Shown here piece by piece: positions 2,651 through 64,000 of a stretch of 64,000 bases of DNA. The notes under the pieces were generated by a model, which was not told the DNA's origin, did no database searches, and worked only from the letters and a program-made list of their open reading frames with translations. How positions within the stretch are numbered: the first letter of the stretch is position 1; every line of letters starts with the position of its first letter. A program made the position numbers and the translations under genes. The stretch comes from Puia sp. (GTDB taxonomy: Bacteria; Bacteroidota; Bacteroidia; Chitinophagales; Chitinophagaceae), in NCBI GenBank assembly GCA_031292515.1, contig JARLGZ010000109.1, positions 1 to 64,000 on the forward strand, given 5' to 3'.

Positions 2651-2765
2651 CATTTACCTCTTAATCATTTACCTTTTGGTCATTTATCTTTTGGTCATTC
2701 ATCTCTTAATCATTTACCTTTTACTACCTATTAGTCATTCATCTCTTAATCATTCACCTCCGTGA
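2651..2765. repeat. Degenerate 15-bp tandem repeat at the 3' end of the RND gene
   Basis: About seven imperfect copies of a 15-base unit of the form CATTYAYCTYTTRRT (plus strand) run from 2651 to about 2765; one copy carries a short extension. The last copy covers the final codons of the RND pump gene and its stop codon (2746-2748). Read on the minus strand, units contain TGA or TAA in several frames. The array ends where coding sequence begins, so it looks attached to the gene end rather than placed at random. Confidence 0.8.
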
Positions 2766-5700
2766 CATGCGACTGGTGTTTCCCCGAGACGAATGTATAC
2801 ACAGCCGGTATCACAAACAGGGTCAGGATCAGCGAAAACAGGATGCCACCGACGACTACGATCCCCAACGGAATACGGCTCGTCGCCGCCGCTCCCAGGC
2901 TCAGGGCGATGGGCAGCGCGCCGAGGGAAGTCGCGAGACTGGTCATGAGGATCGGCCGCAGACGCTGGGACGCTGCTTCTATGACCGCTTCGCGCTTCGG
3001 CATACCGTGTGCCCGTTTCTGGTTGGTGAATTCGACGATCAGGATCCCGTTCTTGGTGACCAGCCCGATCAGCATGATCATGCCGATTTCCGAAAAGATG
3101 TTGAGCGTCTGGTGGAAGATCCACAGGCTCAGCAGGGCGCCCGCGAGCGCCAGGGGCACGGTGAGCATGATCGTGAGCGGGTCGACAAAGCTTTCGAATT
3201 GAGCGGCCAGTACCAGGTAGATGAGGACCAGCGCCAGGGCGAAGGCAAAGATGATATTGGAGGAGCTCTCCGCATAGTCGCGTGAGGAACCGGAGAGCGC
3301 TGTTTGGAAACTCGCATCCAGCAGTTTGTCGGCGATAGCCTGCATGGCCTTGATTCCGTCGCCGACGGTCTTGCCCTCGGCCAGGGAGGCGGAGATCGTC
3401 GCGGCCTTATACCTGTTAAAATGATAAAGCGTCGAAGGACTGCTGCTGTTTTCCAGGTGAACGACCGCGCTCAACGGGATATTGTCGCCATATTTATTCC
3501 GCACATAGATCTTGCTGATATCGGCAGGGTCATTCCGCTCCCCTCTCTCGACCTGGGCGATGACATAATACTGGTAGCCATTCATGATAAAATAGGCCAG
3601 CCTGCCACCGCTGAAAGCCGCCTGCATCGCCGATATGACATCGTTGGTGGACAAGCCCAGATCCCTGATCTTCATCCGGTCTACGCTGACCTGCAGCTCC
3701 GGCTTATTGAATTTCAGGTTGACATCCGCGTTCGAAAAGGTCTTGTCTTTCCTCACGGCTTCGAGGAAGGCGGGCATGATGCTCTTCATTTTGTCCAGGT
3801 CCTGGTTCTGCAGGACGAATTGCACCGGGAGGCTGGTCTTCGAGCTGGAGCCGACGGCGATGGTCTGTTCCTGTATGGCGAAGATCCGCGCGTCGTTGAA
3901 CCGGCCCAGTTTCCGCTGCAGATCGTTTGCGATCTCGTTCTGGCTTCGGGTTCGGGTCTTGGGGTCTGTCAGGCCGATACGAGGCTGGGAGGTGTTGAGA
4001 GAGTTGTTCCCCGGGACCCGGGCGAAGACGAAATCCCGCTCCGGTACGGAGTCGTAAAGGAAATTTGCAATCTGGTCGGTGACGTCCTGGGTATAGTTAA
4101 AGCTGGCGCCTTCCGGCAGCGTGACGGTGAAGCGGACGCTGCTCCGGTCTTCCAGCGGGGCTATCTCGCTCTGCATATTCCGCATAATAAACCAGATGAT
4201 GCCACCGCAGACGACAATCAGCACCCAGGCGAACCATCGGAATTTCATAAACCAGGTCAGCGTACGTTTATAGCCCGTCTCCATTCCCTGGAAAAAAGGC
4301 TCCGTCTTGTCGTATAACCATCCATGTCCCGCCTTCTTCCGGTTCAGGTATACGTTCAGGACAGGGGTAATCGTCAACGAGACAAAGGCGGAGATGAGGA
4401 CCGCGGCGGCGAGTACGACCCCGAACTCCCGGAACAGCCTTCCGACGAAACCCTGGAGAAAGACGACCGGCATGAATACGACAGCCAGGGTGAGAGAGGT
4501 GGAGATAACGGCAAAGAAGATCTCCTTGCTGCCTTCCAGTGCGGCCTTGCGGATCGGAAGCCCCTGCTCCAGTTTACGGAAAATATTTTCCGTTACGACG
4601 ATCCCGTCGTCGACGACCAGTCCCGTTGCCAGCACGATTCCGAGCAGCGTGAGGATATTGATGGTGAAACCGGCGAGATACATGACAAAAAACGTGGCTA
4701 TCAGCGAAATGGGAATGTCGATCAGGGGACGGAGGGCAATCAGCCAGTTGCGGAAAAAGAAGAAAATGACCAGCACGACGAGCGAAAAAGCGATGATCAG
4801 GGTCTCTTTTACTTCTGCCAGGGACTGGCGGATATTCCGCGTATTATCTATCAGCACATTGAATTCCAGGTCTGCTTTATTGGCCTTTTTTATCTCTTCC
4901 AGCCTCCTGTTGAACTCATCGGCGATAGCGATGTTGTTAGCGCCAGGCTGGGGGATGATCGCCAGCCCCACGGCGTTGACCCCGTTGTATTTCCAGCTCT
5001 GCTCTTCTATCTGCGGGCCTAATTCCACGCGGGCCACGTCGCTGAGGCGGATGATACCGGAAGAGTCCTCCTTCAGGATCAGGTCCCTGAAATCCTTTTC
5101 CGTCGTGAGCCTTCCCAGCGTCTTAATCGTCAGCTCCGTGTTATTCCCATAGATCTTTCCGGGCGGCAGCTCAACATTCTCGTTATTGAGGGTCGTGCTG
5201 ATATCGTTATAGGCGATGCCGTAGGCGTTCATCCTGTCCTGCTGAAGCCAGATGCGCATCGAATAGCTTTTATCTCCGAATACATTCACCGCGCTGACCT
5301 GGTCGATGGTCTGTAACTGCTGCTGCAATACATTATCCGCATAGTCACTGAGCTCCATCAGGCTCTTGGTGCGGCTCTGTACGGCCAGGATCAGGATAAA
5401 ATCGCTGTTGGCATCCGCCTTGGTCACGACCGGTGGCGCGTCGATGTCGAGCGGAAGACTTTGAGTGGCCTGGCTGACCTTATCGCGGACGTCGCTGGCG
5501 GCGGCCTCCAGGTCGATGCCGAGGTTGAACTCCACCGTAATATAGCTGCTGCCGAGAGAACTCGTGGATGAGATGGTACGGATCCCCGGGATCCCATTGA
5601 TCTGTTTTTCGAGCGGCTCCGTGATCCTGCTTTCGATCAGGTCGGGATTGGCGCCGGTATAGTTGGTATTTACGGTTATGATGGGTGGGTCGATCGCAGG

Positions 5701-5811
5701 ATAGTCCCTTACAGCCAGGAAATTATACCCTACGACCCCGAATAAAATGATCATCAGGTTCATCACTGTCGCCAACACCGGTCGCTTCAGGGACAATTCG
5801 GAAATATTCAT
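2746..5811 (-). CDS. RND efflux pump, inner membrane subunit (HAE1/AcrB type)
   Basis: This 1021-residue protein has the normal size for an AcrB-like proton antiporter. It starts with an RPVLATVMNLMIILFG first membrane helix, carries the LVVDDGIVV pair of aspartates in TM4 that relay protons, and has two large periplasmic loops between repeats of the 12-helix fold. It would take substrates from the periplasm or inner leaflet and pass them to the TolC partner. The upstream neighbour is its adaptor (47-base gap) and the downstream neighbour its outer membrane channel. Its start codon lies inside the first copy of a 14-bp direct repeat. Substrate class (drug, bile acid, solvent) is unknown. Confidence 0.93.
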   Translation of the reverse strand: MNISELSLKRPVLATVMNLMIILFGVVGYNFLAVRDYPAIDPPIITVNTNYTGANPDLIESRITEPLEKQINGIPGIRTISSTSSLGSSYITVEFNLGIDLEAAASDVRDKVSQATQSLPLDIDAPPVVTKADANSDFILILAVQSRTKSLMELSDYADNVLQQQLQTIDQVSAVNVFGDKSYSMRIWLQQDRMNAYGIAYNDISTTLNNENVELPPGKIYGNNTELTIKTLGRLTTEKDFRDLILKEDSSGIIRLSDVARVELGPQIEEQSWKYNGVNAVGLAIIPQPGANNIAIADEFNRRLEEIKKANKADLEFNVLIDNTRNIRQSLAEVKETLIIAFSLVVLVIFFFFRNWLIALRPLIDIPISLIATFFVMYLAGFTINILTLLGIVLATGLVVDDGIVVTENIFRKLEQGLPIRKAALEGSKEIFFAVISTSLTLAVVFMPVVFLQGFVGRLFREFGVVLAAAVLISAFVSLTITPVLNVYLNRKKAGHGWLYDKTEPFFQGMETGYKRTLTWFMKFRWFAWVLIVVCGGIIWFIMRNMQSEIAPLEDRSSVRFTVTLPEGASFNYTQDVTDQIANFLYDSVPERDFVFARVPGNNSLNTSQPRIGLTDPKTRTRSQNEIANDLQRKLGRFNDARIFAIQEQTIAVGSSSKTSLPVQFVLQNQDLDKMKSIMPAFLEAVRKDKTFSNADVNLKFNKPELQVSVDRMKIRDLGLSTNDVISAMQAAFSGGRLAYFIMNGYQYYVIAQVERGERNDPADISKIYVRNKYGDNIPLSAVVHLENSSSPSTLYHFNRYKAATISASLAEGKTVGDGIKAMQAIADKLLDASFQTALSGSSRDYAESSSNIIFAFALALVLIYLVLAAQFESFVDPLTIMLTVPLALAGALLSLWIFHQTLNIFSEIGMIMLIGLVTKNGILIVEFTNQKRAHGMPKREAVIEAASQRLRPILMTSLATSLGALPIALSLGAAATSRIPLGIVVVGGILFSLILTLFVIPAVYTFVSGKHQSHVTEVND

Positions 5812-5841
5812 GAGTTAGTCAGGTTAACATGAGTTAGTCAG
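5809..5841. repeat. 14-bp direct repeat duplicating the RND start codon region
   Basis: The 14-mer catgagttagtcag occurs perfectly at 5809-5822 and again at 5828-5841, between the adaptor stop and the RND start. The first copy contains the RND start codon (minus strand 5811-5809), so an ATG of identical local context exists 19 bases upstream, out of frame with the gene. It fits the gene-end repeat pattern seen elsewhere in the window. Confidence 0.75.
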
Positions 5842-5858
5842 ATGAAAGGACCAATGGT

Positions 5859-6944
5859 TCAATTATTGTGATTCGCCGCCAGTTGTTCGAGTGTCTTGAC
5901 ACTACGGATGTTGACACGGGACTGAGGCCTGGCGAACAGGACACCGGTCACGATGACGGTGTCCCCTGCGTGAATGCCCGAGTTGATCTCCACGTTATTG
6001 GCCTCGCGGATGCCTGTCTGCACATTGGCAAACAACGCCTTGCCGTCTTTTATCAGAATCACCTGGCTATTCTTGTCATCGGGAATGATACAGTTGGTAG
6101 GCACCAGGATCGCTTTTTTGTCCGAGCCGGCGTTGATGAATACCTTCACAAAAGCGCCGGGATGTCCCTGACCATCCTGCAGCACGGCTCTCACTTTCAG
6201 GTTGCGGCTCGTTTGATTGACCTGCGGTTCGGTGGCAATAATCACCGCCTTGCGACGGATTTTGGCGCTCGCATCGACTTCCACGTCCAGGACCTCTCCT
6301 TTCCGGACGATCCGGCTATATTGTTCCGGTAGCGTAAAATCTATCTTGTTCTTATCCAGCTGCTGGATGGTGGCGATGATATTGGCCGGCGATACATAGG
6401 CCCCCGGGCTTACCTGACGAAGTCCCACGGTCCCGCTGAATGGTGCGCGAATGAGCGTCTTGTCAAGTTGGGCCTGCGTATAGGCGATATCCGCTTTGGT
6501 ACTGTTCACATTGTTCAGGGCCAGGTCATAATCAGCCTGGTTAAGACCATTGATGGCAAGTAATTTCCGGTCCCGCTCCTCGGTCTTTTGGTACAGATCC
6601 AGCAGCACTTTTGATTTCTCCAGCTGGGCCTGAAGATCCGCGTCGTTGATACGGGCGAACAAAAACCCTTTTTCAACGTGTCCGCCTTCCGGCACATCCA
6701 GAAAGGTGATCCGTCCGCTGACCTCGGGATGCAGCTCCACGTACTCGCCCGCCACGATGCTGCCGTTCGCCTCTACCGAGTTATTGAGAGCGCTGGATTC
6801 CGCTACGATGACATCGACGAGGGTCGGTTGATCGGCACGGGGGGCGGATCTGCCCGCATCCTCTTTTTCCACGCAGGATGCGGCAAATAATGAGAGGCAA
6901 ACCAGGGAGAAAAATATTCCGGGGGCTTGGGGCGGCCTAACCAT
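5859..6944 (-). CDS. RND efflux periplasmic adaptor (membrane fusion protein), lipoprotein
   Basis: A 361-residue HlyD/AcrA-like adaptor. I place the start at 6944, where the product begins with a short basic region, a hydrophobic stretch and an AASC lipobox, rather than at the ATG 36 bases upstream. It then shows the biotinyl-lipoyl-like half (GGHVEKGFLFARIND), a central alpha-hairpin, the second lipoyl half (IRAPFSGTVGLRQVSPG) and beta-barrel and membrane-proximal domains ending in an HAGDTVIVTGV stretch. It should bridge the inner membrane pump to the outer membrane channel. It is the first gene of the adaptor-pump-TolC operon and has a -7 promoter element about 35 bases upstream. Confidence 0.9.
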   Translation of the reverse strand: MVRPPQAPGIFFSLVCLSLFAASCVEKEDAGRSAPRADQPTLVDVIVAESSALNNSVEANGSIVAGEYVELHPEVSGRITFLDVPEGGHVEKGFLFARINDADLQAQLEKSKVLLDLYQKTEERDRKLLAINGLNQADYDLALNNVNSTKADIAYTQAQLDKTLIRAPFSGTVGLRQVSPGAYVSPANIIATIQQLDKNKIDFTLPEQYSRIVRKGEVLDVEVDASAKIRRKAVIIATEPQVNQTSRNLKVRAVLQDGQGHPGAFVKVFINAGSDKKAILVPTNCIIPDDKNSQVILIKDGKALFANVQTGIREANNVEINSGIHAGDTVIVTGVLFARPQSRVNIRSVKTLEQLAANHNN

Positions 6945-6977
6945 GTAGCTGTTTTTAAGGAGGTCAGTGTATGGCGC

Positions 6978-6985
6978 CAAATATA
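6978..6985 (-). promoter_or_regulatory. -7 promoter element for the first RND operon
   Basis: The minus strand reads TATATTTG, an exact match to the Bacteroidota TAnnTTTG -7 box, 34 bases before the adaptor ATG at 6944. No clear TTG -33 box is seen at the expected distance. The position supports the downstream start choice for the adaptor. Confidence 0.5.
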
Positions 6986-7076
6986 GCGAGAAAAGGATCT
7001 CGCCTTGTGGCCTGTCAGCGTGATTTACATGAGTGGTAAGCGCTTGCCCGGAGCGGATTGTGTATTATCTTTCAGT

Positions 7077-8135
7077 ATGGAGCCGTTGATTTTCAGGATA
7101 ACTGATATTGCTCCCGAAACACGGGATGCCGCGACACTGAAGCTGGAGCCGGTCGGGGGTGAATTGTATGTGCCCGGCAAGATGCCGGCCTATGAGGCGG
7201 GTCAGTTTCTGACCTTCCTGCTGACCCTTCGGGGAAGAGCATTGCGACGATCTTATTCGATTTGTTCTGCTCCGGGAGTCGACCCTTTCCTCGCAGTCAC
7301 CATAAAACGGGTGGCCAATGGAGAAGTATCGCGATACCTGCTCGATCATTGCCGGGTCGGAGATACCCTGGTTTCTCTGCCGCCCTTTGGCAGGTTCACG
7401 CTTGCCACCCACCCGCAACAGCAAAGAAATATATTTTTTATTGCAGCGGGCAGTGGGATGATTCCCGTATTTTCTCTGCTAAAAAAAGTGTTGCGGGAAG
7501 AGCCGCTCAGCCGGGTGACGCTTCTCTCCCAGGACCGGGACGAAGACAGCATCCTGTTCAGGAAAAGCCTTGCGGTGCTGAGAGTACGATTTCCCCTGTC
7601 CTTTCATTGGTCGGCTTTCCTGAGCAAGCCTGCTGATCCGCGTATAAACGGCCGGCATCTCAATAGTACGATCCTCGAAGAAACCGTCGGAAGGCAAGGA
7701 GCCTCCGTTCCCGATGCGGAGACCCTGTTTTTCCTCTGCGGCCCCCTTCCGTTTATGCGGATGAGCTGGTTTACGCTTCGGGTGATGGGCATAGAAGAAC
7801 GGCAGATAAAAAAAGAGAACTTTACGGTGGATGCTGTTCCGGCGCCGCCGGTATCCACGGACAACAGGCCCAGGCGGGTGACGATACATTACCGTCAGAA
7901 AACCTGCACGATCCGCGTGGCCTATCCGGATACGATCCTTACCGCCGCCTTGCATCAAGGCATTCCCCTGCCTTATAGCTGCCGGGGAGGACGTTGTTCG
8001 GCCTGTATGGCGAGATGCCTGGATGGACAGGTGAAAATGAGTATCAACGAAGTGCTGTCGGAAAAAGACCTGGAGCAGGGATGGGTGCTGACCTGCGTAG
8101 GCTATGCGGAGACGGATGCGGAAATAACGGTCTAA
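7077..8135 (+). CDS. FAD/NAD(P)H oxidoreductase with C-terminal 2Fe-2S ferredoxin domain (PaaE-like)
   Basis: A 352-residue electron-transfer flavoprotein. From the start chosen at 7077 it shows an FAD-binding barrel with an RSYS motif (about residues 58-61), an NAD(P)-binding domain with AAGSGMIPV (about 122-130), and a plant-type ferredoxin domain whose cysteines C302, C307, C310 and C340 have the C-x4-C-x2-C...C spacing for a 2Fe-2S cluster. Proteins of this build pass electrons from NAD(P)H to an oxygenase, as in the phenylacetyl-CoA epoxidase reductase PaaE, or to other acceptors. No oxygenase genes are nearby, so the partner is unknown. A longer frame from 7005 exists, but its extra 24 residues do not look like the family. 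Confidence 0.85.
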   Translation: MEPLIFRITDIAPETRDAATLKLEPVGGELYVPGKMPAYEAGQFLTFLLTLRGRALRRSYSICSAPGVDPFLAVTIKRVANGEVSRYLLDHCRVGDTLVSLPPFGRFTLATHPQQQRNIFFIAAGSGMIPVFSLLKKVLREEPLSRVTLLSQDRDEDSILFRKSLAVLRVRFPLSFHWSAFLSKPADPRINGRHLNSTILEETVGRQGASVPDAETLFFLCGPLPFMRMSWFTLRVMGIEERQIKKENFTVDAVPAPPVSTDNRPRRVTIHYRQKTCTIRVAYPDTILTAALHQGIPLPYSCRGGRCSACMARCLDGQVKMSINEVLSEKDLEQGWVLTCVGYAETDAEITV

Positions 8136-8141
8136 TAGTCC

Positions 8142-10997: not shown

Positions 10998-11012
10998 ATT
11001 CGCTTCAATTAC

Positions 11013-11044
11013 ACGACTACCTTCTGTATACGACTACCTCCTGT
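11013..11044. repeat. 15-bp direct repeat between NtrC-like gene and hydrolase
   Basis: Two copies of a 15-mer (minus strand ACAGRAGGTAGTCGT), differing at one base, lie at 11013-11027 and 11030-11044, about 20 bases past the stop codon of the NtrC-like regulator. More diverged related words (AACAGCAGACAG) fill the space up to the stop. It belongs to the same gene-end class as the arrays at 2651, 39424 and 41663. Confidence 0.65.
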
Positions 11045-13370: not shown

Positions 13371-13402
13371 AATCCCGGAGCCTTTTATCAAGCTCCGGGA
13401 TT
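13371..13402. terminator. Bidirectional hairpin terminator between small ORF and pdhB
   Basis: An 11-bp perfect stem (13371-13381 with 13392-13402) closes a 10-base loop. T-rich tracts follow on both strands: TTGTTATTT on the plus side and ATTATTTTT on the minus side. It can therefore end both the plus-strand small ORF and the minus-strand pdhB transcript. Confidence 0.75.
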
Positions 13403-13444
13403 GTTATTTCGGGATTGTTATTTTTAAAGAGGGCAGCTTCCGTC

Positions 13445-20300: not shown

Positions 20301-23300
20301 TTACGGCCGAGGCTACTTCTGATATAGAACGGACCTGAGTAGTAAGGTTTTGTGCAAGTTGATTCACATTTTCTGTGAGGTTCTTCCAGATGCCCGATGC
20401 ACCCGGAACGCTGGCTTGTCCGCCCAGTCTGCCTTCTACCCCCACCTCGCGGGCAACCGTAGTAACCTGGTCGGCAAACAGGGCGAGCGTATCGATCATT
20501 TCGTTGATCGTATCGGTGAGCTGGGCCACTTCCCCCCTGGAGACAATCGATAATTTCTGCTTGAGGTTTCCTGTTGCCACGGCGGTTACCACTTTGGCGA
20601 TCCCACGCACCTGGTTGGTGAGGTTAGAGGCCATCATATTCACCGAGTCGGTCAGATCCTTCCAGGTACCGGCCACTCCCCTGACCTCGGCCTGGCCTCC
20701 CAGTTTTCCTTCCGTGCCTACTTCACGCGCCACACGGGTCACTTCGTAGGCAAAAGAGTTTAGTTGTTCGACCATCGTGTTGATCGTATTCTTCAGGTCC
20801 AGGATTTCTCCCTTTACATCGATGGCCACTGTCTTGGACAGGTCACCGCTGGCGACGGCCTTCGTCACTTCGGCGATATTACGTACCTGTGCGGTGAGGT
20901 TACCCGTCATCTGATTCACCGAATCGGTCAGATCCTTCCAGGTCCCGGCAACCCCCGGCACAAACGCCTGCCCCCCCAGTTTACCATCGGTACCCACCTC
21001 ACGGGCCACACGGGTGACCTCGGAGGCAAATGCACGCAACTGATCGACCATGGTATTGAGGGTCTCTTTTAATTGGAGGATTTCTCCGCGCACGTCGACC
21101 GTGATCTTTTTGGACATGTCACCGTTGGCGACGGCGATGGCCACTTCGGCGATATTACGTACCTGTGCGGTGAGGTTACCCGCCATCTGGTTCACCGAGT
21201 CGGTCAGATCCTTCCAGGTCCCGGCAACCCCCGGCACAAACGCCTGTCCTCCCAGTTTGCCATCGGTTCCTACTTCACGCGCCACGCGCGTCACTTCCGA
21301 AGCGAAACCGCGTAATTGATCCACCAGCGTATTGATCGTATTTTTTAATTCCAGGATTTCGCCCTGCACGTCGACGGTGATCTTACGGGAAAGGTCGCCG
21401 TTGGCAACGGCCGTCGTCACCTCGGCGATATTACGCACCTGTGAGGTCAGGTTGGAGGCCATCTTGTTGACGCTATCCGCAAGGTCTTTCCAGGTTCCTC
21501 CCACCCCCGGCACATCGGCCTGTCCGCCGAGTTTGCCTTCCGACCCCACTTCGCGTGCCACGCGCGTCACTTCCGAAGCAAAAGAGTTCAGCTGGTCCAC
21601 CATCGTATTGATCGTATTTTTCAATTCCAGGATTTCGCCTTTCACGTCGACGGTGATCTTACGGGAAAGGTCGCCCTTGGCGACGGCCGTCGTCACCTCG
21701 GCGATATTGCGCACCTGGCCGGTCAGGTTACTGGCCATCCCGTTCACGGAATCGGTCAGGTCCTTCCAGACGCCCCCTACTCCTTCCACGGTAGCCTGTC
21801 CGCCGAGCTTGCCTTCCGATCCTACTTCACGCGCCACGCGCGTCACTTCCGAAGCGAAACCGCGTAACTGGTCCACCATCGTATTGATCGTATTCTTTAA
21901 TTCCAGGATTTCGCCTTTTACATCCACGTCGATTTTCCGGGAGAGGTCGCCTGTGGCGACGGCTGTGGTCACTTCGGCGATATTGCGCACCTGCGAGGTC
22001 AGGTTGGAGGCCATCTTGTTGACGGAATCCGTCAGGTCTTTCCAGGTTCCTCCCACCCCGGGCACATCGGCCTGTCCGCCGAGCTTGCCTTCCGACCCTA
22101 CTTCGCGTGCCACACGCGTCACTTCCGAGCCAAAGGAGTTCAGCTGGTCCACCATCGTATTGATCGTATTCTTCAATTCCAGGATTTCGCCCTTCACGTC
22201 CACCGTGATCTTACGGGAAAGGTCACCCTTTGCTACGGCGGTGGTCACCTCGGCGATATTGCGTACCTGTCCGGTCAGGTTACCTGCCATCCCGTTGACG
22301 GAATCGGTCAGGTCTTTCCAGGTGCCGGCGACGCCTTTTACCTGGGCCTGTCCGCCGAGTTTCCCCTCCGTTCCCACTTCGAGCGCCACGCGGGTGACCT
22401 CCGAGGAGAAGGAGTTGAGCTGATCCACCATCGTATTGATCGTATTCTTCAATTCCAGTATCTCGCCTTTCACGTCGACCGTGATCTTACGGGAAAGATC
22501 ACCTTTTGCCACAGCGGTGGTCACCTCGGCGATATTACGCACCTGCCCGGTCAGGTTGCTGGCCATCTGGTTGACGGAATCGGTCAGGTCCTTCCAGACG
22601 CCTCCTACTCCTTTTACCTTTGCCTGGCCACCGAGTTTTCCCTCCGATCCTACTTCCCTGGCCACACGCGTCACCTCGGCCGAGAAGGAGTTGAGCTGGT
22701 CCACCATCGTATTGATCGTATTCTTTAATTCGAGGATCTCCCCTTTCACATCCACCGTGATCTGCCTCGATAAATCGCCTTTTGCCACGGCGGTGGTCAC
22801 CTCGGCGATATTTCGCACCTGGCCGGTCAGGTTACTTGCCATCTGGTTGACGGAGTCGGTAAGGTCCTTCCAGGTGCCGGCGACGCCTTTCACCTGGGCC
22901 TGCCCGCCGAGCTTTCCTTCCGTTCCCACTTCAAGGGCCACACGCGTCACTTCCGAGGAAAAGGAGTTGAGCTGGTCCACCATCGTATTGATCGTATTCT
23001 TCAACTCGAGGATCTCTCCCTTCACATCCACCGTGATTTTTTTGGAAAGGTCTCCCTTTGCGACGGCTGTCGTCACTTCCGCTATATTCCTCACTTGCGC
23101 GGTCAGGTTGCTTCCCATCTGATTCACGCTGTCCGTCAGGTCCTTCCATACTCCCGCTACGCCCTTGACCTTTGCCTGCCCGCCGAGCTTGCCTTCCGAG
23201 CCTACTTCCCGCGCTACGCGGGTCACTTCCATAGAGAAGAGGTTGAGCTGTTTGACCATATCATTCACTTCTTTGGCAATCCTGGAGAATTCCCCCTGCA

Positions 23301-38885: not shown

Positions 38886-39434
38886 ATGAACAGCCGAAGG
38901 GAATATGAAATTGCGTTTGTGGGCCTAAAGCCTGGCATTCATGAGTTTAGCTATCGGATTACGGATAAATTCTTTGAGGCCTACCAGCAGCAGGATTTCC
39001 GCCGTTGCGATGCCAACGTGAAGCTGTTCCTTGACAAAAAGAACGGTTTTATGTTGCTGAAATTCGAGGTTGGTGGAAAAATGGAGATTGCCTGCGACCG
39101 GTGCGGCAATACCCTGCCCCTGGAACTGTGGGATGAATTTAATATCCTGGTAAAACTGGTCGAGGAGCCGGATATTATGAACCAGCAGGAGGAAGATCCG
39201 GATGTATATTATATATCCAAAGGCGAAAGCCATCTTCATATATCCGACTGGATTTATGAGTTCATAAACCTCAGTATTCCCATGCAACGGATGTGCAGGG
39301 AGGAAGAGATCGGCGGGCCCTGGTGTAATAAAGAAGTGCTGGAAGCGCTGAAGAAAATGGAAATTGAAAAGACCGATCCTGTCAATCCCATCTGGAAGGG
39401 ACTGGAGAAGTTTAAAGATCTCGGGAAGCAGTAG
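38886..39434 (+). CDS. yceD: YceD/DUF177 family protein
   Basis: A 182-residue DUF177 protein. In most bacteria this gene lies just before rpmF, as here, and is linked to large ribosomal subunit or 23S rRNA biogenesis, though its exact role is open. Visible marks are the CDRCGNTLPLELWDEF block, an EEDPDVYYISKGE stretch and a second Cys pair near the C terminus (MCREEE and GPWCNKE). The stop codon is part of a 10-bp tandem duplication. Confidence 0.85.
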   Translation: MNSRREYEIAFVGLKPGIHEFSYRITDKFFEAYQQQDFRRCDANVKLFLDKKNGFMLLKFEVGGKMEIACDRCGNTLPLELWDEFNILVKLVEEPDIMNQQEEDPDVYYISKGESHLHISDWIYEFINLSIPMQRMCREEEIGGPWCNKEVLEALKKMEIEKTDPVNPIWKGLEKFKDLGKQ

Positions 39435-39443
39435 GAAGCAGTA
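39424..39443. repeat. 10-bp tandem duplication across the yceD stop codon
   Basis: The unit ggaagcagta occurs perfectly twice (39424-39433 and 39434-39443). The stop TAG (39432-39434) spans the junction, and the second copy repeats a TAG at 39442-39444. It fits the gene-end repeat class. Confidence 0.65.
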
Positions 39444-39486
39444 GATTGATTATAAATTATTTTCTGGATATTTAAATTGAAGTGAT

Positions 39487-40654: not shown

Positions 40655-41676
40655 GGGACTTTCTTCATTATCTGAAAGACTATTTCAGGAACATCCCTTT
40701 AAGAAATTTTCTTTTTACTTTCGTCTTCGTCGCGGGGCTCATCACCCTGAATTATACGCTGGGTATCGAGAACAGGATCCGGGCTTTGTCGCCCTGGCCG
40801 CTATCCTTTTCGCTCTTTTTCGGGTTGTATCTCGGGGTATTCGGGATCGCCTACTCTTTACAGACCGCTCTGCCCGGCTTCCCGCCGCGTCCAGGGCATG
40901 GATTTTTACGGATCCTGTCCGAGAGACCCGACAAAGGATCGTTTGCCGCGTTGCTCCTGCTGGCGCCCCTGCTATTCGCTTTAAAGATGGTCCATTGGGA
41001 CCTGTCATGGATTACCGGCTCCGGTCCGGTCCCCGGCGAAGCCGCATCGTGGCGCCGCTATTGGTTGCTGATTCTGCAATTGCCGGTCAAATTACTGGTC
41101 ATCCTGGGTCTGCTGTATGCCTGCTGGCGGTTGGGCCGCAAGACCGGAGGGGGTGGGGAGGGTACAGACTACCCGGACGGCAACGACAGCTTCTATGGAT
41201 TGACGGCAAAAGGCTTTTCGGCACTCCCCTATTTCAAGATCCTGCTCCTGTTGCTGCCGCTCGTAGCGATCGCCTCCACGCAGCATGATTTTCTGCAGAC
41301 TTACCCCAGGATGAAAAACATGGCCTTTCTGAGTGAACGGGTGCACCCGGCATGGCCCTGGCAACTGCTTTACGAGCTTTCCTATGGCCTCGATTTCGTC
41401 TCGATAGAGCTGTTCTTCAGAGGATTTCTGGTGCTGGGCTTCGTTAGATTTGCCGGCATCCATGCGATCCTGCCGATGGCGGCATTCTATTGCACGATTC
41501 ATTTCGGGAAACCGCTCGGAGAATGCATCTCTTCTTTTTTCGGGGGGTTGGCCCTGGGAGTGATTGCCTGGAGAAGCCGCACGATCCTGGGCGGTTTGAT
41601 CGTCCATCTCGGCCTGGCCTGGATGATGGAACTGGGCGGCTGGCTGGGGAATAACCTTGTTAGCAGTTCCCATTAG
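40651..41676 (+). CDS. CPBP-family membrane protein with degenerate protease motifs
   Basis: A 341-residue protein with about eight membrane helices and the C-terminal CPBP (Rce1-like) domain. The family's EExxxR motif reads IELFFR here, with the first Glu replaced by Ile; the second motif His is in FYCTIHFG and the third in GLIVHLGLA. In Rce1 the first Glu is needed for catalysis, so this copy may be inactive or a membrane-binding relative. It is translationally coupled to plsX, hinting at a role in the membrane. Its stop codon lies within a 22-bp tandem repeat. Confidence 0.72.
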   Translation: MRDFLHYLKDYFRNIPLRNFLFTFVFVAGLITLNYTLGIENRIRALSPWPLSFSLFFGLYLGVFGIAYSLQTALPGFPPRPGHGFLRILSERPDKGSFAALLLLAPLLFALKMVHWDLSWITGSGPVPGEAASWRRYWLLILQLPVKLLVILGLLYACWRLGRKTGGGGEGTDYPDGNDSFYGLTAKGFSALPYFKILLLLLPLVAIASTQHDFLQTYPRMKNMAFLSERVHPAWPWQLLYELSYGLDFVSIELFFRGFLVLGFVRFAGIHAILPMAAFYCTIHFGKPLGECISSFFGGLALGVIAWRSRTILGGLIVHLGLAWMMELGGWLGNNLVSSSH

Positions 41677-41728
41677 CATCTTTCGCAGTTCTCATTCGCG
41701 TACTCAGCGTCTCTTATTCGCGTCCTTC
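41663..41728. repeat. 22-bp imperfect tandem repeat across the CPBP gene stop
   Basis: Three imperfect 22-base units run from 41663 to 41728, each of the form gcRKTYYCNTTMKC followed by a short T/C-rich part. The first unit contains the last four codons and the TAG stop (41674-41676). The array ends at the T-tract of the RNase P RNA gene, which is convergent. Confidence 0.6.
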
Positions 41729-41734: not shown

Positions 41735-42172
41735 AAAAAAACTACCAACCTGTAAGCCGGATCCTGTTACCCCGCACAAGTGCGGAGCGATCATCATTTA
41801 TCTGGCCCCTGCATTACTGCAGGGATCTAGCTGCCTACCCTTCCCGGCATCATCGGAGATGATAGTGAACGGGCCGCTCACCTTGCCGCCCGACGGGATT
41901 TTATTCCGTCGGGCGGCAAACCGGGATATACATGGCATTTCAGCATGCAAGGTTTACCCCTTCCGGCAATTACTCACCGGAACCCCAGGATCTTACCCTG
42001 GATTTTCACCCTCACCACGGCCTCTTTGAGGAGGCACGGGCAGTTATTTTCTGTGGTACTGGCTGTCCTCCCGTTTAACGGGGAGCCCCGGCTTTTAACC
42101 GGTACATTGCCCTTAGCTGTCCGGACTTTCCTCCCCCCGCAGATAGCGGAGAGCGATGACCCGGTTGGTAGC
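41735..42172 (-). ncRNA. rnpB: RNase P RNA (type A)
   Basis: The minus strand holds the catalytic RNA of RNase P, which matures tRNA 5' ends. Conserved blocks are GAGGAAAGTCCGGAC (near 42133-42119), a CCACAGAAA stretch (near 42050), AGGGTGAAAATCC (near 42014-42002), and the 3' AGGATCCGGCTTACAGG (near 41766-41750). The 5' GGCTACCAACC pairs with 3' GGTTGGTAG to close the molecule, and a T-tract follows. A perfect 14-bp hairpin (41883-41896 with 41906-41919) is probably an extended P12 arm. The ends are set from the closing helix. Frames over this region on both strands are shadows. Confidence 0.95.
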
Positions 42173-54351: not shown

Positions 54352-54358
54352 TAATGGC

Positions 54359-59154: not shown

Positions 59155-59180
59155 AAATTGACTACTAATTAATAATTCCA

Positions 59181-59301: not shown

Positions 59302-59337
59302 CAGCACTTTAACCCATCGTGTCTATTTCGCCTTCTT

Positions 59338-60468
59338 ATGCGTGTACATTATCATATCGAAGCCTTACCTTTTTTCCGGCATGCGGTCATCACTATCGGT
59401 ACTTTTGACGGCGTACATACCGGCCACCAGCAACTATTGCAACAACTCAGGAACGAAGCCCTGCGGATAGACGGGGAGACGGTCATCATCACTTTTGATC
59501 CCCACCCGCGCAAGATCGTGAGCGGGCACGCAAAGGAGATCCGCCTGATCAATACCCTTGAAGAAAAGATCGGGCTGCTGGCCGGGGCAGGGATAGACCA
59601 CCTGGTAGTCGTTCCCTTTACCGAAGCCTTCTCACAATTGACCGCTTCGCAATATATTGAGGATTTCCTGGTGGGCAGATTCCATCCCCATACGATCATT
59701 ATCGGCTATGATCATCAATTTGGGAAAGGCAGGCAGGGTGACTATCACCTGCTGGAAAGCTACTGCGCCCCCATGAACTATGAATTGAAGGAGATCCCGG
59801 TCCACCTGTCCGACAGCATATCGGTAAGCTCCACCCGTATCAGGGAGGCGCTGACCGATGCGGATATCGACACTGCCAACCACCTGCTGGGGTACACTTT
59901 CTTTTTTTCCGGACGTGTAGTAAGCGGCAACCGCCTGGGACGGACGATCGGCTATCCCACGGCTAACCTGGAAATCGATAACCCGGAGAAGATCGTTCCC
60001 GGCGACGGGGTCTATGCTGTTGAGGCAGAGATTGTGAGTGGTGAGAGGCCGTTGCTGAGCGATGAGCTGAGCAGAGAATGGTCAGTAGTGAGCGATCAGG
60101 TGAGTGGCGAGTGGTCAGTAGTGAGCGGAGATGCCAACGATGAAGCGTCTGTTGGTGGCGAAAGCGTGGGTGACCAATCCAGCGAGACGGACAGCGGGCG
60201 GGCACGGGAGATGATGGCCGGATCACCGAAGGGTGGCGCGCGATACAAAGGCATGATGAATATCGGCTTGCGGCCGACAGTGGATGGTAAAAAAAGAGTG
60301 ATCGAAGTGAATCTTTTCGATTTCAACGAAGACATATACGACAGGAAGTTGCGGGTATACCTCGTAAAACATCTCCGGGGAGAGCAGAAATTCAGTGGTC
60401 TCGATGGCCTCAGGGAACAACTCGCCCGGGATAGGGAGGAGGCCTTGCAGATATTGAGCACAAAGTGA
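59338..60468 (+). CDS. ribF: Riboflavin kinase/FAD synthetase with a large inter-domain insertion
   Basis: A 376-residue bifunctional enzyme that makes FMN and FAD; relatives have about 310 residues. The N-terminal FAD synthetase half shows IGTFDGVHTGHQQLL and IIGYDHQFGKGRQGD, then SVSSTRIREAL. The kinase half has GRTIGYPTANLEI and, after the insertion, YKGMMNIGLRPTVDG and EVNLFDFNEDIYD. Between Val228 and Arg302 about 65 extra residues appear, rich in Ser, Glu, Gly and Val, with EWSVVS repeated 11 residues apart. They arise from a short DNA repeat inserted in frame at the loop before the kinase GxY-KGxxNIG motif. The enzyme is probably active, since all motifs are kept. Confidence 0.93.
   Translation: MRVHYHIEALPFFRHAVITIGTFDGVHTGHQQLLQQLRNEALRIDGETVIITFDPHPRKIVSGHAKEIRLINTLEEKIGLLAGAGIDHLVVVPFTEAFSQLTASQYIEDFLVGRFHPHTIIIGYDHQFGKGRQGDYHLLESYCAPMNYELKEIPVHLSDSISVSSTRIREALTDADIDTANHLLGYTFFFSGRVVSGNRLGRTIGYPTANLEIDNPEKIVPGDGVYAVEAEIVSGERPLLSDELSREWSVVSDQVSGEWSVVSGDANDEASVGGESVGDQSSETDSGRAREMMAGSPKGGARYKGMMNIGLRPTVDGKKRVIEVNLFDFNEDIYDRKLRVYLVKHLRGEQKFSGLDGLREQLARDREEALQILSTK
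60022..60130. repeat. Repeat-derived insertion within ribF
   Basis: Degenerate copies of tggtcagtagtgagcg-like words run from about 60028 to 60130; two perfect 16-base copies lie at 60079-60094 and 60112-60127, 33 bases (11 codons) apart. The 11-mer gtagtgagcgg (60118-60128) recurs on the minus strand at 62913-62903, in the repeat region at the stop codon of the outer membrane gene. The unrelated-looking rest of the insertion continues to about 60240. Confidence 0.7.
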
Positions 60469-60536
60469 TAGAGCAGCGTGTCGGGACCGGCTGCATTCTG
60501 ATTGCACAGGAGGGCATCTCATTTTCAAACCGGGAT

Positions 60537-61544
60537 TCAAACCGCAATCATCTTCACCGCCATCTCCTTTAGCAAGGAGGCGTCCTCTGTAGCGACGCTG
60601 TTAATGCCGATGCTTCTCAGGTTATATTCGTGAAGAAGCAATAATGCATTCTCGACCCCCTCATATCCGTAGTTCCGTGCAGTCGCGATATAATCCTTGA
60701 CAAAATAGGGATTGACACCGATACCGGCTGCAATGCTTTTTTCATCCTGCCCGCCCTGCCCGAAGATCATATAAGCCTTACTAAAGAAATTATACAGCGA
60801 GGGGAGAATGAGCTGAATCGGTCCGGCCTTTGGATTGCCTTCAAAATACTGTATGATACGGATCGCCTTGGTCATGTCTTTCCGGGAGAAGGCGTCCTGC
60901 AATTCGAATACGTTATACTCCTTGCTGATGCCTACATACCGTTCGATATCATCCTCTGTAATATTGTCCCGCTTGCCGAGATTGACCAGTAGCTTGTCGA
61001 TCTCGTTATCGATGCGGCTGAGATCGTTGCCAATATGATCCACCAGCAGGAGCAACGCCTTCTGGGAGATCGTATATCCTTTGGAGGTCACCAGCTCCCG
61101 CGTCCATTCGGGCAACTGGTTCTCGTAGAGCTTTTTTGTCGTGAACACCTCCGCCTTGTCTTTTTCCTTTAGCAGTTTGGAGAGGCGACTGCGGCCGTCG
61201 AGCTTCTTTTCTTTATAGGAAACGACAAAGATGGTGGACGAGAGGGGTTTATCCACATAGGCCTCCAATTTGTCGATATCCCGCATTTGCTGGGCTTCCT
61301 TGAGCAATACCACCTGTCGTTCGGCAAACATCGGATACCTCCGGCAGGCATTGATAACGGCGGCCCAATCGGCGTCCCTGCCATAAAATACCGTCAGGTT
61401 GAAGCCCGCCTCGGCCTCTGTAAGTATCTCATGCTCAGCATACCGCATCAATCGATCGATATAATATTCCTCCTCGCCTTCCAGCCAGTATATGGGTTTG
61501 AACCTTTGTTTCTTCCAATCTCCTATGATCTTTTCTGCGGACAC
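60537..61544 (-). CDS. holA: DNA polymerase III, delta subunit
   Basis: A 335-residue clamp-loader delta subunit, which opens the sliding clamp. I start it at a GTG (61544), giving VSAEKIIGDWKKQRFKPIYW then LEGEEEYYID, the usual beginning of Bacteroidota HolA; the frame back to 61592 adds sixteen residues without family likeness. The pattern NDLSRIDNEIDKLLVNL and ENALLLLHEYNLRSIGIN near the C terminus are typical. It is convergent with ribF. Confidence 0.88.
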   Translation of the reverse strand: MSAEKIIGDWKKQRFKPIYWLEGEEEYYIDRLMRYAEHEILTEAEAGFNLTVFYGRDADWAAVINACRRYPMFAERQVVLLKEAQQMRDIDKLEAYVDKPLSSTIFVVSYKEKKLDGRSRLSKLLKEKDKAEVFTTKKLYENQLPEWTRELVTSKGYTISQKALLLLVDHIGNDLSRIDNEIDKLLVNLGKRDNITEDDIERYVGISKEYNVFELQDAFSRKDMTKAIRIIQYFEGNPKAGPIQLILPSLYNFFSKAYMIFGQGGQDEKSIAAGIGVNPYFVKDYIATARNYGYEGVENALLLLHEYNLRSIGINSVATEDASLLKEMAVKMIAV

Positions 61545-61620
61545 CTTTTTTACATGGTTTAGGTGGTGCAATATTACATAAATACATAACAACCAGCGAT
61601 CGGCGGAATAAAAATGATTT

Positions 61621-61636
61621 TGGCACGGTTTTAGTC
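61621..61636 (+). promoter_or_regulatory. Sigma-54-like promoter upstream of the coiled-coil membrane protein
   Basis: TGGCACGGTTTTAGTC has a perfect -24 block (TGGCACG) and an imperfect -12 block (TAGT where TTGC is expected, with the key G kept at the right spacing). It lies about 90 bases before the ATG at 61724. An NtrC-family activator is encoded at 11065 in the same window. Confidence 0.4.
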
Positions 61637-61723
61637 AAGAGGAGAATGGAGCTTTAAAAATGAACTCCTACCGACCGACGAGGTCAGCATCGATAACTTT
61701 TTTTGAAAAAAAACTAATAAACC

Positions 61724-62701
61724 ATGAGCACAACCAACTATCCATCGGCAACCCCTCAAAGTCAGCCTCCCAAGAAAGATTATAAAATTCTTATAATCGG
61801 CTTGCTCGCTGCAGGTTTCTTATTAACATGGGGTTATTTACTGTGGAACAACAACAAGCAGGAACAGGTTCAGCAGCAACAAACCCAGCAGATTGCAAAG
61901 GTCACCGACGAAAAGGGTCAGCTACAGAAGAATTTTGATGACGCCCTGGTTCGCCTGGATTCTTTAACAGGCACTAATAATAAGATGCAGAGCCAGCTGA
62001 GCGAACGCCAGACTGAAATCGGAAAATTGAAAGGGAACATCCGCGGCATCCTGAAAAAGGAAAAACTGACCGAAGCCGAAAAGAAAAAAGCGGAAGACCT
62101 GATAAAGGAACTCAACGACAAGATCAATAACCTGGAGCAGGAAGTAGCTCGTCTCACCCAGGAGAATCAGCAGCTGAATGCCGACAAGACACAGTTGACT
62201 GCTGATAAGGAGAAACTCACCACCGACCTCCAGACTACCACCACTGCCAAGCAGGACCTGGAAAAGAAAGTAGACGTGGCTTCCACCTTGAATGCGTCCA
62301 ACATCGCGATCAGCCCGATCCACGAAAAGAGCAATGGCAAGGAAAAGGTCACGACTACGGCGAAAAGGGTCAACAAACTGGTTATTTCTTTCGATGTTGA
62401 CAACCGTATCGCCCAGACGGGCCAGACCGATGTATATGTGTGCATCACCGGTCCTGATGGCCAGCCTGTTTCTGTACCTGCACTGGGTTCAGGCACCTTC
62501 ACCACCCGCGAAGAAGGCGACAAGGTTTTCACCGCAAAAGTGCCCGTAGATATCGAAGCCGGTAAGAAGAAATCGGTACAGTTCGCCTGGAAGCAAAATA
62601 GCGACTTCAAGATCGGAAGCTACAAGATCGAAATCTATCACAACGGTTTCAAGATCGGCGAAGGAACAAAAGAACTGAAGAAGGGCGGTCTTTTCAGCTA
62701 G
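61724..62701 (+). CDS. Membrane-anchored coiled-coil protein of unknown function
   Basis: A 325-residue protein with one membrane helix (about 20-40; KILIIGLLAAGFLLTWGYLL), a long coiled coil (about 45-185) rich in Gln, Lys, Glu and Thr, and a C-terminal beta-sandwich-like domain (about 205-320) ending in SYKIEIYHNGFKIGEGTKEL. The short Pro/Gln-rich N terminus is probably cytosolic, so the coiled coil would span the periplasm. I know of no function for it; the layout suggests an envelope spacer or stress protein. It has its own terminator and a sigma-54-like promoter. Confidence 0.75.
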   Translation: MSTTNYPSATPQSQPPKKDYKILIIGLLAAGFLLTWGYLLWNNNKQEQVQQQQTQQIAKVTDEKGQLQKNFDDALVRLDSLTGTNNKMQSQLSERQTEIGKLKGNIRGILKKEKLTEAEKKKAEDLIKELNDKINNLEQEVARLTQENQQLNADKTQLTADKEKLTTDLQTTTTAKQDLEKKVDVASTLNASNIAISPIHEKSNGKEKVTTTAKRVNKLVISFDVDNRIAQTGQTDVYVCITGPDGQPVSVPALGSGTFTTREEGDKVFTAKVPVDIEAGKKKSVQFAWKQNSDFKIGSYKIEIYHNGFKIGEGTKELKKGGLFS

Positions 62702-62759
62702 GACGGAACGCAATAGCTTCGCAACAGAGTATGTTATTTATGAAAACCACCATGATAGG

Positions 62760-62781
62760 AATCCCGGCTTAGGCCGGGATT
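62760..62781 (+). terminator. Terminator of the coiled-coil protein gene
   Basis: A 9-bp stem (aatcccggc at 62760-62768 with gccgggatt at 62773-62781) closes a 4-base loop and is followed by TCTCGTTTAT. It lies 58 bases after the stop codon. Confidence 0.7.
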
Positions 62782-62789
62782 CTCGTTTA

Positions 62790-62829
62790 TATAGTCTCTC
62801 ATTGACCACTATAGTCTCTCATTGACCAC
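62790..62829. repeat. Perfect 20-bp tandem repeat plus degenerate tail near an outer membrane gene stop
   Basis: The 20-mer beginning tatagtctctc and ending attgaccac occurs perfectly at 62790-62809 and 62810-62829. More diverged words of the same flavour (CATTGACCAC, TTCACCACT, GCTCACTG, GCTCACTAC) run on to 62913, where the minus-strand outer membrane gene has its stop (62912-62910). On the minus strand the word GTAGTGAGCGG covers that stop codon. Confidence 0.7.
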
Positions 62830-62909
62830 CCGCAATTAACTATTCACAATAAGTATTCATCACGGTTCACCACTCCTTTTCCTGCTCACTGCAGGCTGCC
62901 CACCGCTCA

Positions 62910-64000
62910 CTACAACAACGCCCTCAACGAGGCCCGGCCCGTATGAACGGTCATCGCCTCACCGGGTTTTCTACCCTCATACTGAATGGTCAACTCGAGA
63001 TTGTTGCCCAGTTTCTTTGTAAAATTGAGACCCCACAGATAGTTTTTACCGGGAACAAGACCGTCCAGGATCACATATCCCACAGAAGAATTCGGGTCAG
63101 GCGTCCCCCCGTTTATAGCAGAATAGAGGATATTGCTGTACGTGAATGTTGCCTGAATGGATGTGCTTTGAAGAATATTGTACTTGAATTCGCTGTTTAG
63201 AGCGTTGGAAGAATACCGCTCTCCGCCCAGGTTAGAAGGGTTGTCTTTGCTGCTGTATTTATAGCCGACCATGATCCGGAAATTGGCGCCACGGGTATAG
63301 GTCAGATCCGGCTCCAGCGAATACTGCCGCAAGTTATAGTTGCTGCTGTCGAAATCCTGGCTGGAGCTGAAAAGCTGGTTGGTACCTTGTTTGAGGGTCG
63401 TATTAACGGCAAACGCTTTTGACAGGTTCCATCTTGTGCGCAGGCTCCATTCCTTCAATAACCGGGTTTCATATCCATAGGTCAGGAAAGTTTTCCCCCC
63501 GTTGTTTGAGTTGCTGATATCGAAGCCAAATTTCGCGCTCGACTTGTTAAAAGAGAAAGTATTTACAAATACCGATGTCTGCGTGATCAGCGAGGTATCG
63601 TTCAGCGGTGCTTTAAAAGGATTCAGCTGGACGAAACCCTGGGCCTGTTCCTTTTGGCTGCGCTGTAAAGAGGATTGGAAGCTTAGTCTTGTAAGAAACT
63701 TTTTAAAGCCGGTGCTTTTTACCGGATCGAAGTAGAGACGGGGATTGATATTGAGGCTGTAGTTTAAAGTATTGTAGTTCGCCTTGACATACACGTCCGT
63801 GGGCGTAAAGATGCGTATAAAGAGTGCCTGGTCAGGGAATTGGGCCAGTACAAACTCATTAAGCTGCTGGATGCCGTCCCCGTTTGCATCAATCCAGGCG
63901 TATTGGCCCGTACCGGCCGGTACCTGTACATAAGAATAGTTCATTTTTTGAACCTGCCCCGATCCCACTTCATATAATACATTTCCCGTAAGCATGCCCT
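62910..64000 (-). CDS. C-terminal part of a large outer membrane beta-barrel protein
   Basis: The frame is open at the right window edge, so only about the last 360 residues are seen. It consists of alternating polar/hydrophobic strands ending in aromatic residues with Asn-, Ser- and Thr-rich turns (for example YSLNINPRLYFDP, RIMVGYKYSS and WGLNFTKKLGNNLELTIQYEG), the pattern of a transmembrane beta-barrel. Near its start an Asp/Asn-rich turn, WIDANGDGIQQLNEF, resembles a calcium-binding or dockerin-like loop. It does not match a TonB receptor end I know. The stop lies inside degenerate repeats. Confidence 0.7.
   Translation of the reverse strand, partial: GMLTGNVLYEVGSGQVQKMNYSYVQVPAGTGQYAWIDANGDGIQQLNEFVLAQFPDQALFIRIFTPTDVYVKANYNTLNYSLNINPRLYFDPVKSTGFKKFLTRLSFQSSLQRSQKEQAQGFVQLNPFKAPLNDTSLITQTSVFVNTFSFNKSSAKFGFDISNSNNGGKTFLTYGYETRLLKEWSLRTRWNLSKAFAVNTTLKQGTNQLFSSSQDFDSSNYNLRQYSLEPDLTYTRGANFRIMVGYKYSSKDNPSNLGGERYSSNALNSEFKYNILQSTSIQATFTYSNILYSAINGGTPDPNSSVGYVILDGLVPGKNYLWGLNFTKKLGNNLELTIQYEGRKPGEAMTVHTGRASLRALL

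Follow-up and report, generated by a model that had tools for sequence, protein, structure and literature searches.

The question raised by this locus is why the ends of genes unrelated to one another should carry short tandem repeats. The locus is a 64,000-nucleotide stretch of a Puia genome (Chitinophagaceae), G000:C243:1-64000, hereafter the window, in which a first-pass annotation had described imperfect repeats covering or directly following the stop codons of at least six genes and had ascribed them to a process acting near stop codons rather than to one dispersed element. The genome (7.34 Mb in 285 contigs, 99% complete and 3.2% contaminated) was sampled by joining the window with 44 stretches of 20 kb, giving 944 kb or about 13% of the genome, from which the small contigs L082-L086, L088-L091, L093-L096 and L099-L101 are excluded; the samples of relatives were smaller. 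The 761 genes of the sample were called by a simple hexamer-based procedure, an array is a repeat with a Tandem Repeats Finder (TRF) score of at least 50 unless stated otherwise, and positional tests exclude periods above 60 bp and gaps at sequence ends. On balance, it is probable that short blunt tandem duplication occurs, or until recently occurred, at an unusually high rate in this lineage and is filtered by selection, with a dispersed heptamer family as a second contributor.

The enrichment of arrays within 100 bp of stop codons, the test named in the first-pass annotation, was borne out by the sample: 96 of 166 arrays (score at least 50, period at most 60 bp) lay that close to a stop, in comparison to 29.5 for random positions (standard deviation (sd) 4.8, maximum 42). 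For noncoding arrays the count was 87 of 122, in comparison to 46.1 for random noncoding positions (sd 5.5, maximum 59). Tandem gaps held 91 arrays in 77 kb (1.18 per kb) and convergent gaps 21 in 15 kb (1.40 per kb), in comparison to 6 in 36 kb of divergent gaps (0.17 per kb). In tandem gaps, arrays (score at least 40) cover 0.3% of bases at 30 to 21 bp before the gene end and 6.6% in the final 10 bp; beyond the stop, coverage is 10% to 13% in most bins up to 80 bp and 9.6% in the last of them, and it is 1.5% over the 10 bp ahead of starts. Coverage in convergent gaps was 7% to 12% over the first 60 bp, and in divergent gaps 0.4% to 1.6% up to 100 bp from the start and 2.6% to 3.9% at 100 to 150 bp. 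Avoidance of coding DNA and of divergent (promoter) gaps makes up much of the 3' bias, and a two- to threefold excess at the stop is left over, which is weaker without the heptamer arrays described below.

This remaining excess bears on whether the duplications are seeded at gene ends, by breaks, nicks or polymerase stalling at the termination of translation or transcription. Among the 91 tandem-gap arrays, 32 overlap a stop and 4 overlap a start, in comparison to 16.3 (sd 3.4) under random placement. A neutral simulation, in which arrays were inserted randomly into array-free gaps, the frame found a new stop and short C-terminal changes were tolerated, gave a stop overlap of 12% to 18% in comparison to the observed 28 of 75 or 24 of 60 (37% to 40%, depending on the zone excluded before the start), which speaks for such targeting, as do the 5' edges of arrays in gaps of at least 150 bp, which peak within 20 bp on either side of the stop (12 and 8 of 57), and the placement of arrays at stops in two other Chitinophagaceae, G039 and G040. 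Targeting is nevertheless rather unlikely in our judgment, given that base coverage forms a plateau over 0 to 80 bp with no spike, that exact (young) duplications are spread along the 3' gap even beyond 100 bp, and that 10 of the 32 stop-overlapping tandem-gap arrays belong to the dispersed heptamer family. Where arrays and stops do overlap, the stop lies in the first unit. In 48 overlaps (47 arrays, score at least 45) the array starts 1 to 31 bp before the stop's end, a lead of at most one unit in 38 cases and of at most one unit plus 3 bp in 46, as expected if the first copy must keep the stop. Units with lengths divisible by three were, by eye, not depleted among stop-overlapping local arrays, which leaves the idea of a frame-covering stop unit unsupported.

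The abundance of arrays is itself unusual. The noncoding DNA of the sample (137 kb) holds 100 arrays (0.73 per kb) in comparison to 0 to 3 in ten dinucleotide shuffles, and the coding DNA (807 kb) holds 45 in comparison to 4 in one shuffle; simple scaling gives roughly 800 noncoding arrays for the whole genome. The level is much lower in most same-genus genomes sampled, with 9 of 11 at 0 to 0.29 per kb of noncoding DNA, several on small samples: G002 0.04 (1 array, 23 kb), G009 0.11 (2, 18 kb), G007 0.13 (2, 15 kb), G010 0.09 (1, 12 kb), G014 0 (0, 2.6 kb), G020 0 (0, 5.3 kb), G017 0.22 (2, 8.9 kb), G006 0.17 (2, 11.8 kb) and G022 0.29 (2, 7.0 kb). The two richer genomes are G019 with 0.46 per kb (4 arrays, 8.6 kb) and G015 with 0.70 per kb (9 arrays, 13 kb). 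Judged by identity of the RND pump, G019 is the nearest genome (93% across a fragment, in comparison to 91% for G017), and it carries its own local units. Genomes from other families of the order gave 0.05 (G025), 0.18 (G030) and 0.00 per kb (G031), and Escherichia coli K-12 gave 0.06 per kb (2 arrays, 33 kb). A rough count with gene calls trained per locus, over 80 single loci from the RND match list, found 64 arrays in 303 kb of noncoding DNA in comparison to 3.0 in shuffles. Many of the 70 best noncoding arrays have 2 to 4 copies and 66% to 100% matches.

Exact duplications (unit 8 to 80 bp, at least 10 bp matched, low-complexity units excluded) show the same excess, with 36 noncoding (0.26 per kb) and 18 coding (0.022 per kb) in this genome. 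The noncoding and coding counts were 1 and 1 in G002 (0.04 per kb noncoding), 1 and 1 in G009 (0.05 per kb), 0 and 0 in both G007 and E. coli, 2 and 1 in G030, and 5 and 0 in G015, and the noncoding counts in G039, G040 and G041 were 17, 4 and 5, all of 7-8 bp-type motifs. That the repeats are an artefact of assembly or sequencing, for which the number of contigs and the contamination level might be cited, is hardly credible: an artefact would not avoid coding DNA as these exact duplications do, nor would it prefer units divisible by three in coding DNA or avoid divergent gaps, the degenerate multi-copy arrays look old, and the separate assembly G019 has similar local arrays.

The repeats found in the window are given below, with the number of 300 local dinucleotide shuffles that equal them where this was computed.

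2646-2760 (TRF), minus strand: 15-bp array of about 8 degenerate copies over the stop (2746-2748) of the RND permease gene (open reading frame 2746-5811, minus); 0 of 300 shuffles.
5809-5846, minus strand: 19-bp duplication (17 of 19 alike by reading) covering the start codon of the RND gene; 0 of 300 shuffles.
11010-11044, minus strand: 17-bp duplication in the spacer between the NtrC-like gene and the next gene; 0 of 300 shuffles.
13396-13423, no strand: two exact 14-bp copies between convergent genes, 21 bp past a stop, with no junction homology.
39424-39444, plus strand: exact 10 bp x 2.1 (GGAAGCAGTA) over the yceD stop (39432-39434); 1 of 300 shuffles.
41660-41726, plus strand: 22-bp degenerate array of about 3 copies over the stop (41674-41676) of the CPBP-family gene; 0 of 300 shuffles.
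60056-60127, plus strand: 33-bp x 2.2 array of T[GC]AGT[AG]G-like heptamers within the open frame 59299/59338-60468 (plus).
62790-62829, no strand: exact 20 bp x 2 in a convergent gap, with no junction homology; 0 of 300 shuffles.
62886-62915, minus strand: degenerate heptamer-like run TAG TGAGCGG TGGGCAG at the stop of the gene 62910-63995 (minus), seen by eye and not significant alone.

All six stretches of the first-pass annotation thus hold a repeat that beats its shuffles, but only three cover a stop, one covers a start and two lie in spacer. The repeats of the RND pump, yceD and the CPBP gene were found over their stops with the periods described. The junction between the adaptor and RND genes had been read as a 14-bp repeat at a stop; its period is 19, and it is one of the rare start-overlapping cases, the adaptor stop at 5859 lying outside it. 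The repeat behind the NtrC-like gene is real, with a period of 17 rather than 15; it lies about 20 bp beyond the stop (11065) and 12 bp ahead of the next start (10997), and contains an AGGAGGT-like stretch. What remains of the last stretch is its exact 20-bp duplication, separated from the stop (62701) by 88 bp and by a terminator-like hairpin (62758-62783); the tail at 62830-62913 is equalled by 27 of 300 shuffles and so lacks significance, and for the gene labelled outer membrane Pfam yields one weak coiled-coil-type match, below the cut-off. The duplication at 13396-13423 was missing from the earlier list. The CPBP array, which is absent from the TRF list at a score of at least 30, is close to the 3' end of the RNase P RNA (41737-42172, minus), the sole Rfam match in the window at the gathering threshold.

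Where do the units come from? Locus-specific units are mostly 8 to 22 bp long and, as had been claimed, they differ between loci: 103 of 144 arrays are singletons by unit clustering, the exception being one 19-member heptamer cluster. The RND unit GAGGTGAATGATTAA is the gene's own final codons, E V N D stop (GAG GTG AAT GAT TAA), repeated about 8 times; the RND genes of nine relatives end in TEVTD, TEVNE, TEVVE or, in L150, THVTA before the stop, with no such array visible behind. In the ortholog comparison (23 of 73 queries matched, cases drawn from those with a top match of at least 55% identity), a gene in L141 ending in EVFGEYK before its stop is identical there to its ortholog in L196 (a G007 stretch), and the last 20 bp or so are repeated in L141 only; a second L141 gene (ending RDEL or RDEI) follows the same pattern. 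The derivation of units from the gene's own end stands for several loci only. Dispersal of the 15-bp RND unit was considered and found no support, as its degenerate 23-base pattern had no match with up to 2 mismatches outside the RND array and, with 3 mismatches, 17 places elsewhere in comparison to 11 for a reversed control. Three orthologs speak against a strictly species-specific phenomenon: that of yceD in L038 and another in L226 have arrays of their own at the stop, the L038 repeat beginning at the stop (AAGAAGGATAG, then GGATACT-like units) with a motif different from that of the window, and for a third gene the G019 ortholog (L249) has its own repeats in the same spacer.

The junctions of the duplications were used to consider whether short direct repeats had given rise to them by ordinary replication slippage or by Okazaki-flap duplication. 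With h as the matched length beyond one unit, that is, any junction homology, 27 of the 36 noncoding exact duplications were usable, 4 with units below 10 bp and 5 with h of at least half the unit (short units or longer arrays) being left out. The results showed h=0 in 15, h=1 in 4, h=2 in 4, h=4 in 1 and h of at least 5 in 3. By our own arithmetic, chance matching alone predicts about 15 zeros, so the majority of the duplications are blunt, and simple microhomology-anchored slippage is a poor fit to the birth step, slippage being one of the processes named in the first-pass annotation. Slippage can expand an existing array, and multi-copy arrays with h far above 0 exist (L140 6334-6434, L113 19430-19503); G019, the other genome with local-unit arrays, gave no match to the Pol I 5'-nuclease, but it is only 65% complete, and the present genome keeps this domain, in a 1019-aa frame, as well as MutS domains. 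As the general origin of the repeats, slippage is accordingly improbable. Unit lengths that are multiples of three occur in 12 of the 18 exact coding duplications.

The view that no single dispersed element is involved was mostly right, since units are mainly locus-specific, but a dispersed family with the motif T[GC]AGT[AG]G takes part. Its 32 arrays in the sample comprise 3 within frames, such as the one at 60056-60127 which shows that the family also enters coding DNA, and 29 in gaps. Among the latter, 22 begin no more than 10 bp from a stop and are all sense-oriented with respect to the nearest one, and 3 antisense arrays lie more than 60 bp from a stop; for arrays within 10 bp of a stop the ratio of own to opposite strand is 22:1 of 32 when every stop is counted and 22:0 by the nearest. 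The 22 linked genes end in TAG (14), TGA (7) and TAA (1), in comparison to TAA 295, TAG 204 and TGA 226 for the sample overall (P 0.0002); in most of them the repeat supplies the stop. An exact 19-mer of the motif has 317 matches in this genome, none in 23 same-genus genomes, none in G039, G040 or G041, 3 in G044 and 1 in G045, so that the family is nearly confined to its own genome. Such numbers, together with the sense-oriented starts at stops, are what one mobile element behind all arrays would have in its favour; the heptamers are, however, just 20 of 142 gene-3' arrays, most units are singletons and the RND unit is not dispersed, and a single element is thus very improbable. Heptamer arrays at stops sometimes have an inverted partner nearby (L105 18115-18265, L133 17615-17732, L108 5452-5752, G000:C137:178165-178238), and 1 of 27 neighbouring array pairs in this genome is inverted.

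Some relatives are rich in arrays of a related kind. G039 (strain 26-R-25) has 1.96 per kb, G040 (Pinibacter soli) 1.00, G041 (a complete chromosome) 0.72 and G015 0.70, largely as 7-8 bp motifs common to several loci. Neighbouring arrays are inverted in 28 of 38 pairs in G039, 17 of 23 in G040, 5 of 7 in G041 and 6 of 7 in G015 (loci L014 and L224-L227, L022 and L228-L231, L026 and L232-L235, and L013 and L236-L239, respectively), and direct pairs never occur. The arms are 19 to 83 bp long and the cores 3 to 180 bp, with motifs that vary between elements and match between arms; the pairs with an arm at a stop (-15 to +5) number 20 of 28, 11 of 17, 3 of 5 and 2 of 6, in the same order of genomes, and two folded G039 examples form long stems (z -11.5 and -7.4). 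Core-core matches between inverted pairs numbered 5 in G039, where a few pairs share cores, and 0 in G040; the arrays of the present genome, G039 and G040 do not fit the MITE- or REPIN-like pattern of inverted arms round a shared core. For four motif families, distinct arrays within 20 bp of a stop divide between sense and antisense as 32:0 (of 62) in G039 and 18:0 (of 43) in G040, which shares motif families with G039, AATAACTG-type arrays standing at stops in both. It is possible, if doubtful, that the Chitinophagaceae have a mechanism that builds or places short-unit arrays exactly at stops, in sense orientation, with lineage-specific 7-8 bp motifs and often an inverted partner downstream, that in this species it supplies the stop codon, and that the same gene-end activity seeds the locus-specific duplications.

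The arrays might also be kept for a function, as back-up stop codons or as elements of the 3' untranslated region. Stop triplets per position in arrays are 0.068 on the sense strand in comparison to 0.034 on the other (81 vs 34 arrays), and an array-free 3' control gave 0.041 and 0.040. Dinucleotide shuffles of locus-specific arrays reproduce most of this asymmetry (0.058 observed, 0.048 shuffled, at 1 to 60 bp past the stop), so that its main source is the purine richness of the sense strand; folding of the RND array as RNA revealed nothing special (z -0.38), and in the few cases compared the units are not common to relatives. A selected function is therefore quite improbable.

Several enzymes were examined as the cause, and the presence or absence of the Pol I 5'-nuclease, MutS, Ku, a LigD-type ligase and Pol IV does not distinguish the genomes with many arrays from those with few. 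For this genome, loss of the Pol I 5'-nuclease was rejected because the domain is found in 33 of 35 genomes, this one included, with no match in the incomplete G013 and G019. Loss of MutS found no support, with MutS_V matches in 15 of 15 genomes; as a side observation, G002 and G007 have 24 and 27 such matches, many in adjacent pairs of frames of about 440 aa, and the 13 other genomes have 4 to 9, which amounts to an expansion of MutS-like proteins in those two. Ku is encoded at C28:31503 and a ligase domain at C28:34431 in a 979-aa frame; as sole causes they fail, since 22 of 35 genomes, array-poor ones included, have Ku and 13 of 15 have the ligase domain. A Pol IV gene (L255 877-1971, minus, subtype NF002677; also in L254) appeared exclusive by score to this genome and G019 among 15 genomes, and a 24-genome search added G022, G006 and G020 (69% to 71% identity), so that 5 of 24 genus genomes carry it at 69% identity or more; it cannot be a sufficient cause, since these three are not array-rich (2 in 7.0 kb, 2 in 11.8 kb and 0 in 5.3 kb).

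Under the account of frequent duplication filtered by selection, birth would consist in the copying of an 8-22 bp segment once beside itself, mostly without flanking microhomology, and growth in further duplication, after which the copies would diverge. Selection would then remove most events in coding DNA and promoter gaps, leaving survivors 3' of genes, and survival would be highest when the segment spans the stop because the first copy leaves protein and stop unchanged. The heptamer family, a separate contributor anchored at stops in sense orientation, accounts for part of the extra stop excess. The blunt junctions suggest end joining of filled-in staggered ends as the likeliest first step, and we tentatively propose, by inference, that the first copy is made when staggered breaks or paired nicks are filled in and the ends are then joined.

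Several observations weigh against this account. With heptamers removed, 22 of 78 locus-specific arrays still overlap the stop, in comparison to the simulated 12% to 18% (P 0.0001 to 0.018 by simulated fraction), and this residual excess is left unexplained by the selection model. Divergent gaps are depleted about sevenfold, more than promoter constraint might be expected to give. Within the genus, G015 reaches a similar array density, albeit largely through 7-8 bp motifs that recur between loci, and G030 has its 2 exact noncoding duplications in just 5.4 kb. Some events may use homology, as 4 of 27 junctions have h of at least 4, and near-exact coding duplications are less biased towards units divisible by three (23 of 45). 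Ku and the ligase domain occur in array-poor genomes of the same genus too and cannot be the cause by presence alone. The gene caller sometimes placed starts so that genes were too short.

As to the neighbouring genes of the window, Pfam and NCBIfam identify the RND permease and its adaptor, an NtrC/NtrX-like sigma-54 response regulator, YceD and a CPBP (Rce1-like) protein. The best matches of the RND pump in the genome collection are 86% to 87% identical and Chitinophagaceae-like (such as Flavitalea, Puia and Chitinophaga). The window also has, at 20605-23230, a 276-bp unit repeated about 9.5 times within a 2151-aa frame that also holds response-regulator domains; these units are putative HAMP-type repeats.

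In eukaryotes, short tandem duplications are attributed to end joining, being short and blunt with no need of microhomology; the blunt junctions of the majority here are similar, although such junctions are not specific to end joining and are not tied here to measured breaks or to Ku or LigD activity. Flap-nuclease (rad27/FEN1) mutants make duplications between short direct repeats and require flanking repeats; the segments are of similar size here, but flanking direct repeats are mostly absent and the Pol I 5'-nuclease domain is present. Dispersed heptamer repeats akin to TAACTGA are also familiar from cyanobacteria as short tandemly repeated repetitive sequences (STRRs).

The tandem repeats of archaeal Borgs have locus-unique units, are recently formed and nearly absent from related genomes, occur in genes and between them, have unit lengths divisible by three in frames and mostly not between genes, and show an A-rich strand bias (PMC9879509). 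The present repeats resemble them in all these traits: units are locus-unique here too, the heptamer cluster excepted, and the strand bias takes the form of a purine-rich sense strand. The present repeats differ from what is described there in belonging to a bacterial genome, in their few and often degenerate copies and in their strong 3'-gene bias; Borg repeats are often flanked by partial repeats, which more than half of the usable exact duplications lack (15 of 27 with h=0), and are perfect with at least three units, whereas many arrays here have 2 to 4 copies and 66% to 100% matches (PMC9879509). TAACTGA heptamer direct repeats with stop triplets are reported from intergenic DNA of Beggiatoaceae, Cyanobacteria and a few Bacteroidetes (PMC4679880). 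T[GC]AGT[AG]G is similarly a dispersed 7-bp unit with stop triplets in intergenic DNA; most Maribeggiatoa repeats stand just upstream of start codons (PMC4679880), whereas 22 of the 29 T[GC]AGT[AG]G gap arrays begin no further than 10 bp from a stop and read in the sense direction. Open-access search listings gave no report of stop-anchored arrays in Chitinophagaceae, which is not proof of absence.

In general, the analysis describes a bacterial genome in which short tandem duplication is a major source of new intergenic DNA, with arrays filling about 10% to 13% of the first 80 bp past stops in tandem gaps, while most same-genus genomes sampled have few. Because array-poor relatives are so near, the molecular cause of short bacterial duplications can be tested by comparison. 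The strictly sense-strand, stop-anchored 7-8 bp arrays, found here and, built from different motifs, in two further members of the Chitinophagaceae, point to a link between gene ends and repeat formation.

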